From contig JAIXQD010000001.1 in the NCBI GenBank assembly GCA_027485855.1, positions 455,575 to 519,574 of the forward strand: a stretch of 64,000 nucleotides of DNA, in the 5' to 3' direction. This document shows positions 1 to 9,218 of this stretch, one piece after another. The DNA comes from Rickettsiales bacterium (lineage in GTDB: Bacteria; Pseudomonadota; Alphaproteobacteria; G027485855). A model generated the notes under the pieces. That model had not been told where the DNA came from, made no database searches, and saw only the letters and a list, made by a program, of their open reading frames with translations. Both the position numbers and the translations under genes were made by a program. Every line of letters begins with the position of its first letter. The first letter of the stretch is position 1.

Positions 1-2429
<2,429 letters not shown>

Positions 2430-2430
<1 letters not shown>

Positions 2431-3299
2431 TATGGCTCCCTCTTTGAATTAGTAATAAATGAACGGCCACTGAGCGCTGCCTTGTAGAAGCTGTCATTCA
2501 GGAAGAAGATAAGTTTCTTGGCTTCTTTCTTGTTATCAGGCATCACAATCTTGCCCTTCTTAAACGCGACCTTGAGCCCCTCATTTTTTGCGGCCTTGCC
2601 GATATCTTTGGGCGTGTACTTTTCCAATATCTTATCTTTCAGGCAAGCATGTATGGCCTTACGCATGGCTTGATCAGCATGATCCAAAAATGCTGCGGGA
2701 TTGGCGGTGTGAATATTTTTGTGGGCGAGAAATCCTTTTACTTCATCATCAGTCGATGCCTTCAACAACGAATCAAGGTCAAAAACTCTATTTAACTTGA
2801 AAAAGCTCTTAAACTTTAAAGTTCCAGATTCAATGATACAAGTCAGTTGGCTGTCGAGTGAGAATGACAGTTCAGACAAACGATTGAACACGTTGTTATC
2901 GAGCATGAGAGAAAAGCCACGGCTCAGAATTTGCTGGCTGGTAAAACGCTGAATCAGTATTTTCTGCGCCGTCCCCGTGCCCCGGGCGACAAAAATTGCC
3001 TTTATATTTTCGGACTGAAAACCGCTATGGCTAACGAGGGGCAAGCTGGTTGCATTGCTTCCAAGAGCTGTGAGGATAGGCTGGGCATGGGGGTTCGCAT
3101 CGAGCGTAAGGAACTCGTCGTCCTCAGGGACCCAACCGCCGTCGAAGACAACCTCGCTAATTACGCCTGCGCGAAAGTCATGCTCCTGTTTGGCAAAGAG
3201 CTGGGCGACATCGTTCTGCACAGATTGGGCAAGCGCCAACCGCTTAATGACAGGCGGTCCACCGCTCGGGCGGCAAAATGCATATAGGTTTTGAACCAT
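2430..3299 (-). CDS. kwaB: KwaB-like protein (DUF4868), Kiwa antiphage system
   Basis: Soluble partner of the two-gene Kiwa antiphage system; KwaB proteins are defined by the DUF4868 domain. About 289 residues. The central part has the run GTLKFKSFFKLNRVFDL, and the C-terminus has FFLNDSFYKAALSGRSF followed by NSK. Both match, from memory, the DUF4868 pattern of an inner beta/phenylalanine stretch and a terminal 'FLNDxxYxSxLxGxxYxxNSK' block. I chose the ATG at 3299 because it follows a strong GGGGGG ribosome site and starts one base after the kwaA stop; an in-frame upstream start at 3320 would overlap kwaA by 20 bases. The gene ends by overlapping hsdR (TAATG). The assignment rests on motif recall plus the membrane-protein neighbour. 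Confidence 0.8.
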
Positions 3300-3300
3300 A

Positions 3301-3873
3301 TCACCCCCCAGGCGCATCAATGATAACGTACTCGGTCAACTGAACGACCGTTAAGGACTCTGCGGCGCTACGCAGCTGCTTACGAGTTATTAGAACATAG
3401 GTTACCCCCTCAGGTGTCGTGACCCGATAGAAGTGCCAACCCAATATCCCCAGGAGCGGGTTGAAGTGGTAGCTATAGCCTGTTGCGACCACCAAGCCAA
3501 AAACCACAAGAGCGGGCACGATCATGTGCCAGTTTAGGCTGCTGAAGGGCCCTGTAAACAGTGGTGCTAGATACAATACGAGAAAGGCAGTGTTTTCGCG
3601 ATCGGCCGCTTCTATCGAGGAGATCTTGAAATTTGTCTGCTCCAGATTGCGTGCGGCATAGAACAATAGCCACTTCCACAAAAGTAAAAGACAGGCGCTA
3701 ACTCCCACGAGAGCGGCTGCCCAAGCAACCTTGCCCTCCAGAAATGCAACCCAGGCATAGACCAACCCAACCGGCGCGATGGCGGTGCAAGTGAGGAGTA
3801 GCTTGGCAAATCCATTTAGCATGCTTGCTCCACTGCGGCGGGCTGATGCACCAACGCCGTTGGGTGCTGGCAT
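3301..3873 (-). CDS. kwaA: KwaA-like four-helix membrane protein, Kiwa antiphage system
   Basis: Membrane component of a Kiwa system, proposed from architecture and context. The 190-residue frame has four hydrophobic segments at roughly residues 21-45, 48-72, 94-110 and 118-140, followed by a soluble C-terminal tail that includes GVTYVLITRKQL. KwaA proteins are about this length, have four transmembrane helices, and are always followed by a DUF4868 gene, as here. A better ribosome site (GTGGAG, 6 bases away) precedes an in-frame ATG at 3822, giving a 173-residue protein beginning MLNGFAK; that may be the true start. It lies 28 bases after hsdS on the same strand. Sequence similarity between KwaA proteins is low, so KwaB carries most of the identification. 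Confidence 0.72.
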   Translation of the reverse strand: MPAPNGVGASARRSGASMLNGFAKLLLTCTAIAPVGLVYAWVAFLEGKVAWAAALVGVSACLLLLWKWLLFYAARNLEQTNFKISSIEAADRENTAFLVLYLAPLFTGPFSSLNWHMIVPALVVFGLVVATGYSYHFNPLLGILGWHFYRVTTPEGVTYVLITRKQLRSAAESLTVVQLTEYVIIDAPGG

Positions 3874-3901
3874 GCCCTTTGTATCGAGAGAGCGGCAGGG
3901 C

Positions 3902-5185
3902 TCATGCGCAAGACCTTTTTTGTCGGGCGGTGCTTTCCATCGCCTCTAGCTGCGCTTCAACCTTGCTTGTCCTTCGCCATGTAACCGCATCAATTTGACC
4001 GGTGACGGCGGCGGTGATGAGCGCGGCACGCAATTCTTGAAGGCGCACGATGGATTTCTCTACCCAGATTATCAATGACTCTTTCTTCGCAAACTCCGCA
4101 TCCAAAAAGCCCACAATGACTTCTTGCTCCTGCCGGGGAGGAACTGGCACTTTTTCGGAGTGGAGATCGTTACGATCAACACCGGGTACTGCAGATTTTG
4201 ATGAGTTCAATACGAAAACATGAGCCAAGTCTTGAAGTAAGTACCACGTAAAGCGTGGATCTTCATAGACACGCGCGGTGTAGAGAGTCGTGTTAAGTGG
4301 CCAATACGTTTGCGTCAGAAAATAGAACTTCCCTATGGTTCCATACCGACCTGTCACTATCCCTGGCGCTTGTGCAACACCGACATTGTGCTCAGATGTA
4401 ATCCCACCTGAACTGACGAGCGGAACTCCTCCCGCGATACGTCTCTCCGAAGGCAGATCATGCCCTCGTTGGAAAAATGCTACGTGACGAAGCGGCTTTA
4501 TATTCCAATTTATAGGTATTCGACCAAACCATTCAATCCCTGAGTCCTGTAATAATGACGGAACCATAAATCGTCCTGTTATACTGGCGTGAAGTACTGC
4601 TTCAAACCGAGCTTCAATCAGAGCAACTTGGCGCTGCTTCTTCTCGATCAGTTGGTCGATGCGGGCGGTTTCTCGGTCAAGGAAATCGGCAATCGCCTTC
4701 TGGGTTTCCAGGTCGGGCGCAGCAAGCCAGTCATTCGGAAAATCAGCGAACTTGATAGATTGCCTGACACCGCCACCTAGCGAGTAGTAATACTTCGCCA
4801 AATCAAGCGCCAATAAGGCATAAGCCCAGAATCGTGAGTCATGCCCTTTCGTCACCTCAAGCGCATCATAGGCAGATGTGATAATTCCGCGCTCTTTCAC
4901 TAAACCCTGACGTATGCTGCGCTTGTCGTTTTGCAGGTCAGTGAGTCGCATAACAATATTGCCCGGCTCTACAATTTGATAGGTTTCGAAGCTCTCCGGC
5001 AGCAAACCCTCAGCCGTGTCGATGTCCTTCCTGATTATATTGCCATAGCTAAGCGATAGCAGGTTGTTTTCCTGCATTCCTATGTTCTTATTGCCTTTCC
5101 TAACTCGAAAAATGCGACGCAGTTTATCGGGCGTCCAGTTTCCTGGAGCTGTCGCGGCGTGGACTCGTTCTTGGAGAGTGATCAC
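3902..5185 (-). CDS. hsdS: Type I restriction-modification specificity subunit HsdS
   Basis: DNA-recognition subunit that directs HsdM and HsdR to a bipartite target. The 427 residues show the usual two-lobed layout. The first target-recognition domain (residues ~1-180) ends in the helical spacer containing FLDRETARIDQLIEKKQRQV. The second domain (~210-360) ends in a related helix with FLDAEFAKKESLI. Near-repeat phrases DLETQKAIADFLD and PRQEQEVIVGFLD mark the two half-repeats. The start overlaps the hsdM stop by four bases (ATGA), indicating translational coupling. The recognition sequence cannot be predicted by eye. Target-recognition domains vary by recombination, so composition may differ from neighbours. 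Confidence 0.93.
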   Translation of the reverse strand: MITLQERVHAATAPGNWTPDKLRRIFRVRKGNKNIGMQENNLLSLSYGNIIRKDIDTAEGLLPESFETYQIVEPGNIVMRLTDLQNDKRSIRQGLVKERGIITSAYDALEVTKGHDSRFWAYALLALDLAKYYYSLGGGVRQSIKFADFPNDWLAAPDLETQKAIADFLDRETARIDQLIEKKQRQVALIEARFEAVLHASITGRFMVPSLLQDSGIEWFGRIPINWNIKPLRHVAFFQRGHDLPSERRIAGGVPLVSSGGITSEHNVGVAQAPGIVTGRYGTIGKFYFLTQTYWPLNTTLYTARVYEDPRFTWYLLQDLAHVFVLNSSKSAVPGVDRNDLHSEKVPVPPRQEQEVIVGFLDAEFAKKESLIIWVEKSIVRLQELRAALITAAVTGQIDAVTWRRTSKVEAQLEAMESTARQKRSCA

Positions 5186-7206
5186 GCCGCCACCTCTTTG
5201 AGCAGCCCTGCGATTTCGGCCTCCAGCTGCTTCAGCTCTGCGTCGATCTCTGCCAGCGGGCGCGGCGGGACATATTTGTAGAAGTAGCGGTTGAAGTTGA
5301 TTTCATAAGCCACGCGGCCGACCTGCTTATCGGTGGCGTCAGTGTAGCTTTCATCCACCCAGGCATCGGGCACGAAGGGCTTTACCTCGCGCGCCACATA
5401 ATCGCGCCAGTCTTCTGCCAGTGGCACTAGCTCGTGGTCGCGCAGCTCGGCATCGGCCTCGGGTTTGCCATCGGCACCCAAACAGATATCTGCCGCCTCA
5501 TTGCGCTCGGCGAGGGCGGACAGAATAGCCTTCTGCACGGGTGTGGACAGCTTCGTGCCTCTAGCCTTTACGGCGCGGCTGAGTGCCTTTTCAAACGCTG
5601 GGCGGTTGGTGAAGATTTGGTCTCCTAGAGCCGCGAGCGTGGCTTCAATCTCCCGCCGCTCGGCCTCGGGCAGCTTCAGGAATGCGCGGTCATGGGCGAG
5701 GCGCTGAAGCCGCTCGGCGCTGGCTTGAAAGTTGAGGCGTAAAGGCCGTTCCACCCGAATTTCGCGGTAGCCAAAGTCGGTGGTGTTGAAAATCTTTGAG
5801 CAATGGCCTTCGCCCGCTGCGCCGTTGAGGAAGCCCTCATAGAGGCGCACAATTTCACGGCGGGCTTCCTCTGGTATCTCGCGCCGCTTGCTGCCCAAGC
5901 TCTTGCGCATGGATTTCCAGAAACGTTCGCCGCTGGCATCGATGAGCTGTACCTTGCCTTGCCGCTTGGCGGGTTTGCGGTTGGTGAGCAGCCAGACATA
6001 GGTCTGAATGCCGGTGTTATAGAAAAGGTCGGTCGGCAGGGCGACAATGGCCTCCACCCAATCATTTTCCAGCATCCACCGGCGGATTTCGCTCTCGCCA
6101 GAGCCAGCGCCACCTGTGAACAGTGGCGAGCCATTCATAACAATGCCGATGCGCGAGCCGTTTTCGTCGTCGCGCATCTTGGCAATCATGTGCTGGAGAA
6201 AGAGCAACTGCCCATCGGAGATGCGCGGCGTGCCTGCGCCAAAGCGGCCGGAAAAGCCCTGGGTTTCGGCCTCGGCTTTGATGGGGTCCTGATATTTTTT
6301 CCAGTCCACGCCATAGGGCGGGTTGGACAGCATGTAATGGAACTTTTTGCCCTTGTGCGCGTCGTTGCTGAGGGTGTTGCCGAAGGCGATTTGCTCGGGG
6401 TCGTGGCCGGTGACGAGCATGTCCGACTTACAGATGCCGAAGGATTCTGGATTCAGCTCCTGGCCGAAGAGCTCAACGCGGATGTTGGGGTTGAAGTCCT
6501 TGAGCGCTTCCTCGGTCAGCGCCAGCATACCGCCAGTGCCGCAGGCGGGGTCATAGACTTGGCGAATGATGCCCTTGCCGGTGAGCTTGTCGTCGTCATT
6601 GGCGATGAGCAAATCGACAATGAGGCGGATAACCTCGCGGGGGGTGAAGTGCTCGCCCGCCGTTTCGTTGGAGATTTCAGAGAAGCGGCGAATGAGTTCC
6701 TCGAATAAATAGCCCATTTCGAGGTTCGAGATTTTGTCCGGGTGTAGGTCAATCTCGGTGAAGCGTTCAAACACCTGCCAGAGGATTTCTGCGTCCTTGA
6801 GGCGCTTGAGCTGGTCGGTGAACAAGAACTTGTCGAGGAAGATGTCGCGGACATTGCCAGAAAACTGTGTGATGTAGTCCACAAGGTTATTGTGGAGCTG
6901 GCGCGGGTCTTGGCCTTTCAGCGTAGCAAAGCTGAAGCGCGACAGATTATAGACCTTAATGTCGTGACCAGCTGCACCAAACAGAATCATGTCACGTGTG
7001 GCTTCGTCCACGCCCTTTGGCAGGTTTTCAGCTGCCTTCAGCACGGCGGTTTTGGACTTCTCCAAGATACAGTCGAGCCGTCGCAGCACGACGAAGGGCA
7101 AGACCACCTTGCCATATTCAGATTGCTTGAAGTCGCCGCGCAGAATTTCGGCCACCGACCAGACAAACGAGCTGAGGGTCTGAACTTTTTGGGAGTGGGT
7201 CTTCAA
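5182..7206 (-). CDS. hsdM: Type I restriction-modification methyltransferase subunit HsdM
   Basis: N6-adenine methyltransferase subunit of the type I complex. The 674 residues begin with an HsdM N-terminal helical domain (~8-150). They then show the S-adenosylmethionine-binding motif DPACGTGGML at ~219-228 and the catalytic NPPYG motif at ~295-299. A C-terminal region ends in a coiled helix rich in Glu and Leu (AEIDAELKQLEAEIAGLL). The start is TTG at 7206, preceded by GAGGGG about eight bases upstream; no in-frame ATG gives a better start. It is the first gene of the five-gene defence operon, whose promoter should lie between here and the tRNA gene at 7316. Confidence 0.95.
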   Translation of the reverse strand: MKTHSQKVQTLSSFVWSVAEILRGDFKQSEYGKVVLPFVVLRRLDCILEKSKTAVLKAAENLPKGVDEATRDMILFGAAGHDIKVYNLSRFSFATLKGQDPRQLHNNLVDYITQFSGNVRDIFLDKFLFTDQLKRLKDAEILWQVFERFTEIDLHPDKISNLEMGYLFEELIRRFSEISNETAGEHFTPREVIRLIVDLLIANDDDKLTGKGIIRQVYDPACGTGGMLALTEEALKDFNPNIRVELFGQELNPESFGICKSDMLVTGHDPEQIAFGNTLSNDAHKGKKFHYMLSNPPYGVDWKKYQDPIKAEAETQGFSGRFGAGTPRISDGQLLFLQHMIAKMRDDENGSRIGIVMNGSPLFTGGAGSGESEIRRWMLENDWVEAIVALPTDLFYNTGIQTYVWLLTNRKPAKRQGKVQLIDASGERFWKSMRKSLGSKRREIPEEARREIVRLYEGFLNGAAGEGHCSKIFNTTDFGYREIRVERPLRLNFQASAERLQRLAHDRAFLKLPEAERREIEATLAALGDQIFTNRPAFEKALSRAVKARGTKLSTPVQKAILSALAERNEAADICLGADGKPEADAELRDHELVPLAEDWRDYVAREVKPFVPDAWVDESYTDATDKQVGRVAYEINFNRYFYKYVPPRPLAEIDAELKQLEAEIAGLLKEVAA

Positions 7207-7315: not shown

Positions 7316-7683
7316 TGGTGCGGGCGGCCGGACTTGAACCGGCACGGCCTTACGGCCGACGGATTTTCTTACCTTCTACGGCTTGCGCCGCCGCCATGCC
7401 GCAGGTGCCTGCTGCATAGCGTTTGGGGTCTGGACTATCCCTTCACCCTACTCGCCGCGTGCGCTGCGAGGTTAGGTGCTGCCCGTCTAGTCTCTACACC
7501 TTCCAGTGACTCTGGCGCGCCGATCTGCATCGGCTGCGCTGTCACTGGCTTGGCTCGGGGTTGCCTTGGCTTACTGTTTAGCCGCCAAGGTTTCCCCGAA
7601 TTTGAGCAGTTCTACTCCTAGTGTTTCCACTAGGGCACTCAATGGCTTAAGTCCGTTGCGTCTACCGATTCCGCCACGCCCGC
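7316..7683 (-). tRNA. tRNA-Leu(UAA) interrupted by a group I intron
   Basis: Class II leucine tRNA in two exons: 5' exon 7649-7683 (35 nt) and 3' exon 7316-7367 (52 nt, CCA encoded). The acceptor strands GCGGGCG and CGCCCGC pair fully. Joining the exons gives anticodon stem ACGGA/TCCGT with loop CUUAAAA, so the anticodon is UAA. A long variable arm (CGGCC/GGCCG) and a T arm GCCGG/CCGGC are present. The intron sits between U34 and A35, the site used by the cyanobacterial and plastid tRNA-Leu intron. A promoter lies just upstream. Confidence 0.95.
7368..7648 (-). ncRNA. Group I intron (tRNA-Leu type, IC3-like)
   Basis: About 281 nt with no protein-coding capacity of note. Strand-specific sequence shows the conserved core of the tRNA-Leu group I intron: a P4-P6 strand with GGCAACCCCGAGCCAAGCC (7548-7566 region), the P7 strand GGTGTAGAGACTAGACGGG (7482-7500), the AAGGGATAGTCC segment (~7433-7444), and a terminal G before the 3' exon. 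It begins after the U of ACTT, consistent with a U.G pair at the 5' splice site. No homing endonuclease frame is present. Expected to self-splice; that is inference from the conserved core. Confidence 0.92.
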
Positions 7684-7695
7684 TTAGCCACCCCT

Positions 7696-7725
7696 TTTAT
7701 AGACGCTTAAAGGGCATTTCGCCAA
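7696..7725 (-). promoter_or_regulatory. Promoter of the intron-containing tRNA-Leu
   Basis: On the minus strand a -35 like TTGGCG (7720-7725) and a -10 like TATAAA (7696-7701) are 18 bases apart, ending about 12 bases before the tRNA 5' end. The same layout occurs at the tRNA fragment near 9118. Confidence 0.55.
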
Positions 7726-7746
7726 GCCTGAAATAACGCCGAGCTT

Positions 7747-8931: not shown

Positions 8932-9077
8932 TTTTCCTATGCCTCCGAAATTCGGCGCGAGGCGGAAAAATGTGTAAGGGCTGTGTAAGCCTATTTCTCG
9001 CCTCAGTTGCAGGCATTCTTACACATAAGATTATGTTTGTAAACAGCTATTTAGCTTGGTCGTTTTAATATCATTAT

Positions 9078-9118
9078 GATTTTAAGTCCGTTGCGTCTAC
9101 CAGTTCCGCCACGCGAGC
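9078..9118 (-). pseudogene. 5' half of an intronless tRNA-Leu(UAA); probable island attachment junction
   Basis: 41 nt on the minus strand match tRNA-Leu positions 1 to ~39: acceptor strand GCTCGCG, TG, D arm GCGGAACTGGTAGACGC, and anticodon stem-loop start ACGGACTTAAAATC. Compared with the complete gene, identity is perfect over GGTAGACGCAACGGACTTAA and over GCGTGGCGGAA. Here the loop continues straight into AAATC, as in an uninterrupted gene. Homology stops at 9078, within the 3' strand of the anticodon stem. No 3' half follows, so this is a truncated gene and the likely right-hand junction of the island. Confidence 0.85.
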
Positions 9119-9127
9119 CCGTGACTT

Positions 9128-9157
9128 TTTATAGCCTTGTTTTAGGCGATTAGCCAA
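9128..9157 (-). promoter_or_regulatory. Orphaned tRNA-Leu promoter reading into the integrase
   Basis: Minus-strand -35 TTGGCT (9152-9157) and -10 TATAAA (9128-9133) with an 18-base spacer, placed about 10 bases before the truncated tRNA. Transcripts would cross the tRNA half and continue into the integrase start at 8931. Confidence 0.5.
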
Positions 9158-9218
9158 GAGGGAATAAGCAGCGGCTGGTTTTTTAATAACAAAAGCTTAG
9201 CTGTGGCTTAGCAGGCAC

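Follow-up and report, generated by a model that had tools for sequence, protein, structure and literature searches.

When a mobile island cuts a tRNA gene of its host in the anticodon loop and supplies a substitute of the same isotype, how does the substitute escape the integrase of the island? The question is raised by a window of 64,000 nucleotides (the whole stretch of DNA that was analysed) from a Rickettsiales bacterium, in which the replacement tRNA gene contains a group I intron. It touches two wider open questions, namely for what reason group I introns persist in bacterial tRNA genes and by what route those that lack a homing endonuclease cross species. In a 2014 review, little evidence was seen of horizontal intron movement between bacterial species (PMC3984707). 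The idea that a tRNA intron may be protective was proposed for archaea and rests on few cases. As cited in PMC4390854 and PMC4090602, the hypothesis of Randau and Soll (2008) holds that archaeal tRNA introns destroy attB and block further integration.

The window is likely to include one end, the one with the integrase, of a mobilizable island of 20,357 bp, seated in the anticodon loop of the host tRNA-Leu(UAA) gene and carrying its own replacement tRNA, with an intron shielding the replacement from the island's own integrase. The reading has no bench data behind it.

Boundaries of the island and the split host gene

The minus strand from 9118 to 9078 reads GCTCGCGTGGCGGAACTGGTAGACGCAACGGACTTAAAATC and is followed by letters that do not belong to a tRNA (ATAATG...). 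This confirms what a sequence-only reading had placed at a boundary here, namely the 5' half of a tRNA-Leu(UAA) without an intron. The half comprises the first 41 bases of the tRNA, the last two of which belong to the 3' side of the anticodon stem. Upstream of it lies TATAAAAAGTCACGG, which resembles the leader of the complete gene. The coordinates of the features are presented in Table 1.

Table 1. Features at the attL end of the island, with the cargo genes and the host junction.
Feature	Position in the window	Strand	Basis or remark
Putative hsdR, N-terminal part of a 996-aa frame	1..2430	-	Open frame, extends to L007:19440 past the window edge; named only from its position beside hsdM/hsdS
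kwaB (Kiwa, cargo)	2430..3320	-	PADLOC E 1.2e-98
kwaA (Kiwa, cargo)	3301..3873	-	PADLOC E 2.5e-69
hsdS, specificity subunit (cargo)	3902..5185	-	Pfam, PADLOC
hsdM, type I methyltransferase (cargo)	5182..7206	-	Pfam; PADLOC E 4.5e-275
Complete intron-bearing replacement tRNA-Leu(UAA)	7316..7683	-	ARAGORN with introns allowed
281-nt group I intron, after U34 inside the core	7368..7648	-	Rfam RF00028; alignment of 32 genes
Spacer with replacement-tRNA leader TATAAAAGGGG	7684..7746	-	63 bp between int and the replacement tRNA
Tyrosine integrase (int), 394 aa	7747..8931	-	PHROG integrase E 9.5e-31; Pfam SAM-like integrase domains
Putative arm-type integrase sites TTACACA	8988-8982, 8977-8971; inverted copy 9025-9019 (span 8971..9025)	-	Repeats also at attL and attR of relatives
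13-bp recombination core CGGACTTAAAATC	9078..9090	-	Direct repeat with attR
attL, 5' half of the host intronless tRNA-Leu(UAA)	9078..9118	-	Sequence; pairs with the 3' half at C9:444249-444307
Host tRNA leader, promoter-like region	9119..9160	-	TATAAAAAG by eye, resembles the replacement-gene leader; function inferred at most

The same reading had advised a search to the left for a 3' half with CGCGAGC plus CCA. This half, CGGACTTAAAATCCGTCGATCGCAAGGTCGTGCCGGTTCAATTCCGGCCGCGAGCACCA, was found on the minus strand of L007:8733-8675 (G000:C9:444307-444249), ending in the acceptor strand CGCGAGC-ACCA. It lies 20.36 kb left of the attL half, the distance from core to core being 20,357 bp. In a genome-wide pattern search, no other 3' halves and no intronless tRNA-Leu(UAA) genes were detected beyond this attR place. 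The fusion of the flanks at CGGACTTAAAATC resulted in a perfect 87-nt tRNA-Leu(UAA) with a full cloverleaf and 7 of 7 acceptor pairs. The empty site had to be rebuilt from the flanks because the genome is the only member of its order in the collection. The boundaries, the integration into the anticodon loop, the empty site, the displaced half and the loss of the host gene are in this way established from the sequence itself. Strand exchange presumably took place within the anticodon loop CTTAAAA, as inferred from the position of the core.

The direct-repeat core at both ends and the uninterrupted joined target correspond to an integrative mobilizable element or a tRNA-targeting genomic island. 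The classical tRNA island, in which the target is rebuilt at one junction, does not apply, since the core is only 13 bp long and both junctions carry half genes. The earlier proposal, a host gene severed by the element at the anticodon stem-loop and replaced by a tRNA that the element brought along, is therefore supported: the 3' half 20.4 kb away rebuilds the host gene, and the pattern recurs in the family. The complete tRNA is, as had also been stated, not a simple duplicate, as the acceptors GCGGGCG and GCTCGCG differ and the missing half is located elsewhere. Duplication or decay of the host gene was ruled out on the same grounds. An assembly artefact was rejected, as both junctions lie within one 675-kb contig and the pattern was repeated in independent genomes; the estimated contamination of the genome, 9.5%, has no bearing on this question.

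Without mismatch, the D-arm/anticodon signature occurs at two places only in the genome, both inside the window. The sole intact tRNA-Leu(UAA) found was the island's own (the genome is 97.8% complete). UUA codons, which in standard decoding are read by the UAA anticodon alone, are used by the host genes; as long as the island is integrated, the host should therefore be unable to do without the replacement gene.

The replacement gene and its intron

The acceptor stem of the replacement gene is GCGGGCG/CGCCCGC, and the gene was not called by ARAGORN without the intron option. The intron was placed between CTT and AAAATC, so that the core is interrupted as CGGACTT^AAAATCCG. This is the most interesting point of the locus, which the sequence-only reading had missed: the intron interrupts the very site that the integrase would target. 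The match to the group I model RF00028 spans 7658-7418 and scored 52.2 bits (E 2.2e-10) at a cut-off of 50. The gene is inferred to be transcribed and spliced.

Full-length alignment was obtained for 32 intron genes with an invariant core. The U.G pair at the splice site was present in 32 of 32 genes and the G before AAAAT in all aligned genes, as required of a group I intron. Of the 83 predicted pairs, which include those of the tRNA stems, 34 showed compensatory changes; together with the RF00028 match these changes agree with a group I core and fold, and the introns of L137, L144, L070 and L084 belong to the same family. The P3/P7 pseudoknot goes beyond the drawing of RNAalifold, and the probable P7 strands never vary and are therefore uninformative. 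The Rfam gathering score was attained in 5 of the 14 intron loci scanned, which means that single loci lie near the threshold of the broad RF00028 model.

Content and class of the island

Leftward from attL, the integrase is followed by the replacement tRNA, hsdM, hsdS, kwaA, kwaB, the putative hsdR (996 aa), a 401-aa unknown protein, a VirD4/TraG-type coupling ATPase, a weakly matched mobilization protein, a relaxase and an AbiE pair. The relaxase (PF03432) and the T4SS-DNA_transf domain (PF02534) exceeded the curated cut-offs, which supports the assignment of mobilization genes, and the recombinase adjoins attL as expected of an integrative element. R328, H329 and Y360 of the integrase are kept in at least 80 of 81 relatives. 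The GC content is 56.7% in the island and 47-52% in the flanks. No phage structural genes were recognised among the island proteins searched. The integrase had no match in 50,697 phage records and a single match among viral contigs, in a weakly informative contig; a phage origin was ruled out on this basis. We take the island to be an integrative mobilizable element whose cargo serves defence (type I restriction, Kiwa, AbiE); its excision and transfer are inferred at most.

Within the cargo, the kwaA/kwaB pair is nested in the type I restriction operon, with hsdS on one side and the putative hsdR on the other (window 1-7206). The AbiEi/AbiEii pair is situated close to the attR end (L007:9783-11316). 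The 401-aa protein beside the putative hsdR (G000:C9, L007:18230-19435) had no match in Pfam, NCBIfam or PADLOC.

Related elements and their displaced tRNA halves

The best 80 of 275 candidate relatives, with 59-71% identity to the integrase, were fetched. Many of them come from metagenome-assembled genomes, whose labels can be wrong. In nearly all relatives with enough flank, a complete tRNA was located about 20-145 bp after int (further off in L090 and L136), and in most of them a truncated tRNA-Leu, cut at the anticodon loop, about 150 bp before int. In eight (L078, L090, L092, L094, L097, L099, L103, L109), an attP-like joint with the other element end was found before int; its bearing on excision is suggestive only. 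TTACACA-type repeats occur on both sides of the cores in relatives, and attR of the present island bears this arm motif of the family.

The displaced 3' half was searched in the genomes of thirty relatives and a match was obtained in 20. In 15 of these 20, the 3' half had no proper 5' half in front of it and paired with the attL acceptor (7/7 in 14, 6/7 in L124). The weakest of the 15 was L134, close to a contig end and without CCA. The half paired better with the attL half than with the replacement acceptor in L086, L101, L074, L066, L140 and L129. The last two are from Acidobacteriota, a membership that is safest for L129 (Acidobacteria bacterium AB60, not marked as a metagenome-assembled genome); they have a longer shared core, reaching up to the D-loop, and the letters before their 3' half are not tRNA. 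In L065, L072, L085 and L131, the match was an intact intronless tRNA-Leu(UAA) in the same genome, representing either a second copy or a mixed assembly. The match of L111 was of the classical type.

L083, L111 and L133 use tRNA-Met, whose 3' portion is intact, and lack a replacement tRNA; the three cluster on the integrase tree with a branch support of 94 only. The plasmid relatives L169 and L170 (55-58% identity) had only tRNA 3' parts in the classical manner, and no replacement tRNA was found beside their int.

The intron and the unchanged core

For 61 elements, bases 30-38 of the target were set against the corresponding bases of the replacement in its spliced and its unspliced form (ten rows by hand). 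The intron was present in 35 of 61. The spliced core was identical to the target in 34 of these 35, whereas the DNA copy was identical in none. The other 26 elements, mostly CAA-targeting, are intronless, and their core was altered in 22, with GATTC, CACTC, GTCTC or GGCTC replacing GACTC. An intron was detected in 34 of the 36 UAA-targeting elements scored; the two without it, L090 and L094, have CACTTAAAA in place of GACTTAAAA, i.e. a changed core. Conversely, the only CAA-targeting element with an intron, L084, has a spliced loop that matches its target. Its gene (L084:6463-6783) is the only intron-bearing tRNA-Leu(CAA) seen, and the 5' splice site is shifted back by one base to follow U33, which keeps a U directly before the splice.

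Exceptions with an unchanged core and no intron were L093, L107 and L099 with its near copy L103, and in part L143. The four intronless replacements that keep the 9-bp target core indicate that the protection is not universal or that outer stem bases also matter.

On the integrase tree, target type and intron changed together repeatedly (12 and 11 changes, respectively). The uncorrected Fisher test for intron versus unchanged core resulted in 1.4e-11. Because this test ignores kinship, reliance was placed on the few independent pairs on well-supported (starred) branches: 0 disagreed, but n was 5-6 and the median p was 0.0625. Co-inheritance of intron and integrase was unsupported (Mantel r 0.10, with 743 of 5000 permutations as high); the two distances are uncorrelated, thus simple co-divergence of tRNA gene and integrase does not apply. 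The replacement gene, the intron family, the recurrence of the arrangement and the link between intron and unchanged core are results of sequence comparison.

Proposed explanation and alternatives

The island would enter the anticodon loop of the host tRNA-Leu(UAA) gene by site-specific recombination, and UUA decoding would persist through its complete tRNA-Leu(UAA), which has its own leader and lies next to int. Left uninterrupted, the replacement would act as attB, and in the circular form it would lie about 1.4 kb from attP, with the risk of deleting int or losing an essential tRNA. With the group I intron inside the recombination core, the DNA copy would no longer be attB, and splicing would restore an ordinary tRNA. 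The replacement gene could in this way escape its own integrase, both in the circular form and against later copies. Sister elements without an intron may reach the same end via altered bases of the anticodon stem or loop. Our inference is that the island cannot afford a replacement gene that serves its own integrase as attB, and that this problem has been solved in two ways, the intron being one. Splicing, the activity of the integrase in recombination, and the avoidance of self-attack as the reason for keeping the intron or the changed stem are likewise inferences.

On balance, the favoured explanation, held with some reservation, is that the intron is kept as it hides the essential replacement tRNA gene from the island's integrase while the mature tRNA stays unchanged, and that the islands then also transport tRNA-Leu(UAA) introns without an ORF between bacteria as distant as Alphaproteobacteria and Acidobacteriota. 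The recurrence in dozens of related islands suggests a use of such tRNA introns.

The intron could instead be a passenger without a role in integration, the replacement tRNA having come from a donor whose gene already had a neutral self-splicing intron. Genes of this kind exist: intron-bearing tRNA-Leu(UAA) without a nearby family integrase was found in other Alphaproteobacteria, e.g. L043, L048 and L053, and UAA is a known place of group I introns in cyanobacteria (PMC4476775). However, the intron is rare in ordinary alphaproteobacterial tRNA-Leu(UAA), roughly 16 of 384 genomes, as against its near-constant presence in the UAA elements; this baseline was obtained by a search with the present intron and distant introns may be missed. 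The repeated joint changes of intron and target type on the integrase tree, the changed core of the intronless UAA elements and the unchanged core of the lone CAA element with an intron also speak against a passenger, which is considered unlikely.

That the intron guards the replacement gene against other elements or anticodon-loop nucleases, and not against its own integrase, is regarded as improbable. Many elements use tRNA-Leu anticodon loops, as seen with the CAA and UAA relatives, and in one archaeal case an advantage against additional elements has been proposed (PMC3293823), but the intronless members alter exactly the bases of their own target core. An anticodon nuclease hits RNA, which is the same after splicing. 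The alternative offered by the sequence-only reading, a 1.4-kb element that consists of the integrase alone and ends at the two tRNA copies, would suit an int standing alone between two tRNA-Leu(UAA) sequences but can practically be discarded, because CGCCCGC of the complete gene mismatches GCTCGCG of the host half whereas the 3' half 20 kb away matches it, the gap between int and the tRNA is 63 bp, the true attR with arm repeats of the family is at that distant site, and the 20-kb interval differs from its flanks in GC content and contains mobilization genes.

Hiding from the island's own integrase thus remains the preferred reading. The archaeal idea of protection gains many bacterial cases from this family together with an internal contrast, intron with unchanged core versus no intron with changed core, and it becomes testable with one integrase and three target genes.

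Comparison with known systems

In cyanobacteria and plastids, the tRNA-Leu(UAA) intron occupies the same anticodon place. The intron of these genes is a group I intron (PMC4476775). Those introns reside in native genes, whereas here the intron is on a mobile island that would serve as its vehicle between species.

In the tRNA-dependent lysogeny of actinobacteriophages (Guerrero-Bustamante and Hatfull 2024), a tyrosine integrase uses a core of about 10 bp in a tRNA gene, and the element's tRNA replaces the target, which is not rebuilt (PMC10865867). In phage Gaia, for example, the core measures 8 bp and lies in tRNA-Leu(CAA), and a tRNA-Leu(CAA) encoded by the phage itself follows downstream of int (PMC10865867). 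The present island shares the short core, the unrebuilt target and the element tRNA of the same isotype. However, those elements are phages with an intronless replacement and ours is a mobilizable island; how the replacement escapes the integrase is not addressed in the discussion of PMC10865867. The island works like tRNA-dependent lysogeny but is not a member of it as defined, as it is not a temperate phage. tRNA replacement is thereby extended from phages to mobilizable islands with defence genes. In Sinorhizobium meliloti, the integration of prophages inactivates tRNA-Leu(UAG) and the prophage supplies the same isotype (PMC11476347); these prophages differ from the island in being similar to a podovirus-named phage, and the word "intron" is absent from PMC11476347.

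In Caldiarchaeum, a 5' fragment of tRNA-Thr(GGU) and an intron-bearing gene stand in direct repeat at an integrated element (PMC3293823). This case is archaeal, concerns one locus and has a protein-spliced intron thought to have been brought with attP. In contrast, many of the present elements share a group I intron, housed in a complete gene that stands separately. According to the second-hand description in PMC10872708, tycheposons are islands with a tyrosine recombinase that have a whole tRNA at their border; neither an intron nor a split target is mentioned in that description. No report joining group I introns, integrases and replacement tRNAs, i.e. intron-armoured bacterial islands, was found in the open-access literature; one may exist in a subscription journal.

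Other arrangements observed

Several loci deviate from the arrangements described above. L045, L051, L053 and L058 share a distinct set of intron-bearing tRNA-Leu(UAA) genes (GCAGACTT.AATTGGAGTGCC) with no integrase nearby, and these genes may be native and vertically inherited. In L046:1160-1662, a tRNA-Leu(UAA) 5' half and an intron-bearing gene are 190 bp apart without an integrase; the locus is apparently a decayed element whose intron gene was left behind. In the relative L142 (L142:4840-6405), int stands between two tRNA-Ser(UGA) sequences, the one before it truncated and the one after it complete and intronless. The replacement in L075 and L116 is tRNA-Leu(UAG), and their likely core is oriented opposite to int. 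In L172-L177 (G409:C59:80001-196161), one integrase is accompanied by three attR-like 3' halves of tRNA-Leu(UAA) on one strand, at about 86.9, 100.6 and 155.1 kb. The variable arms of the three halves differ, and they perhaps represent serial integrations or replacements.
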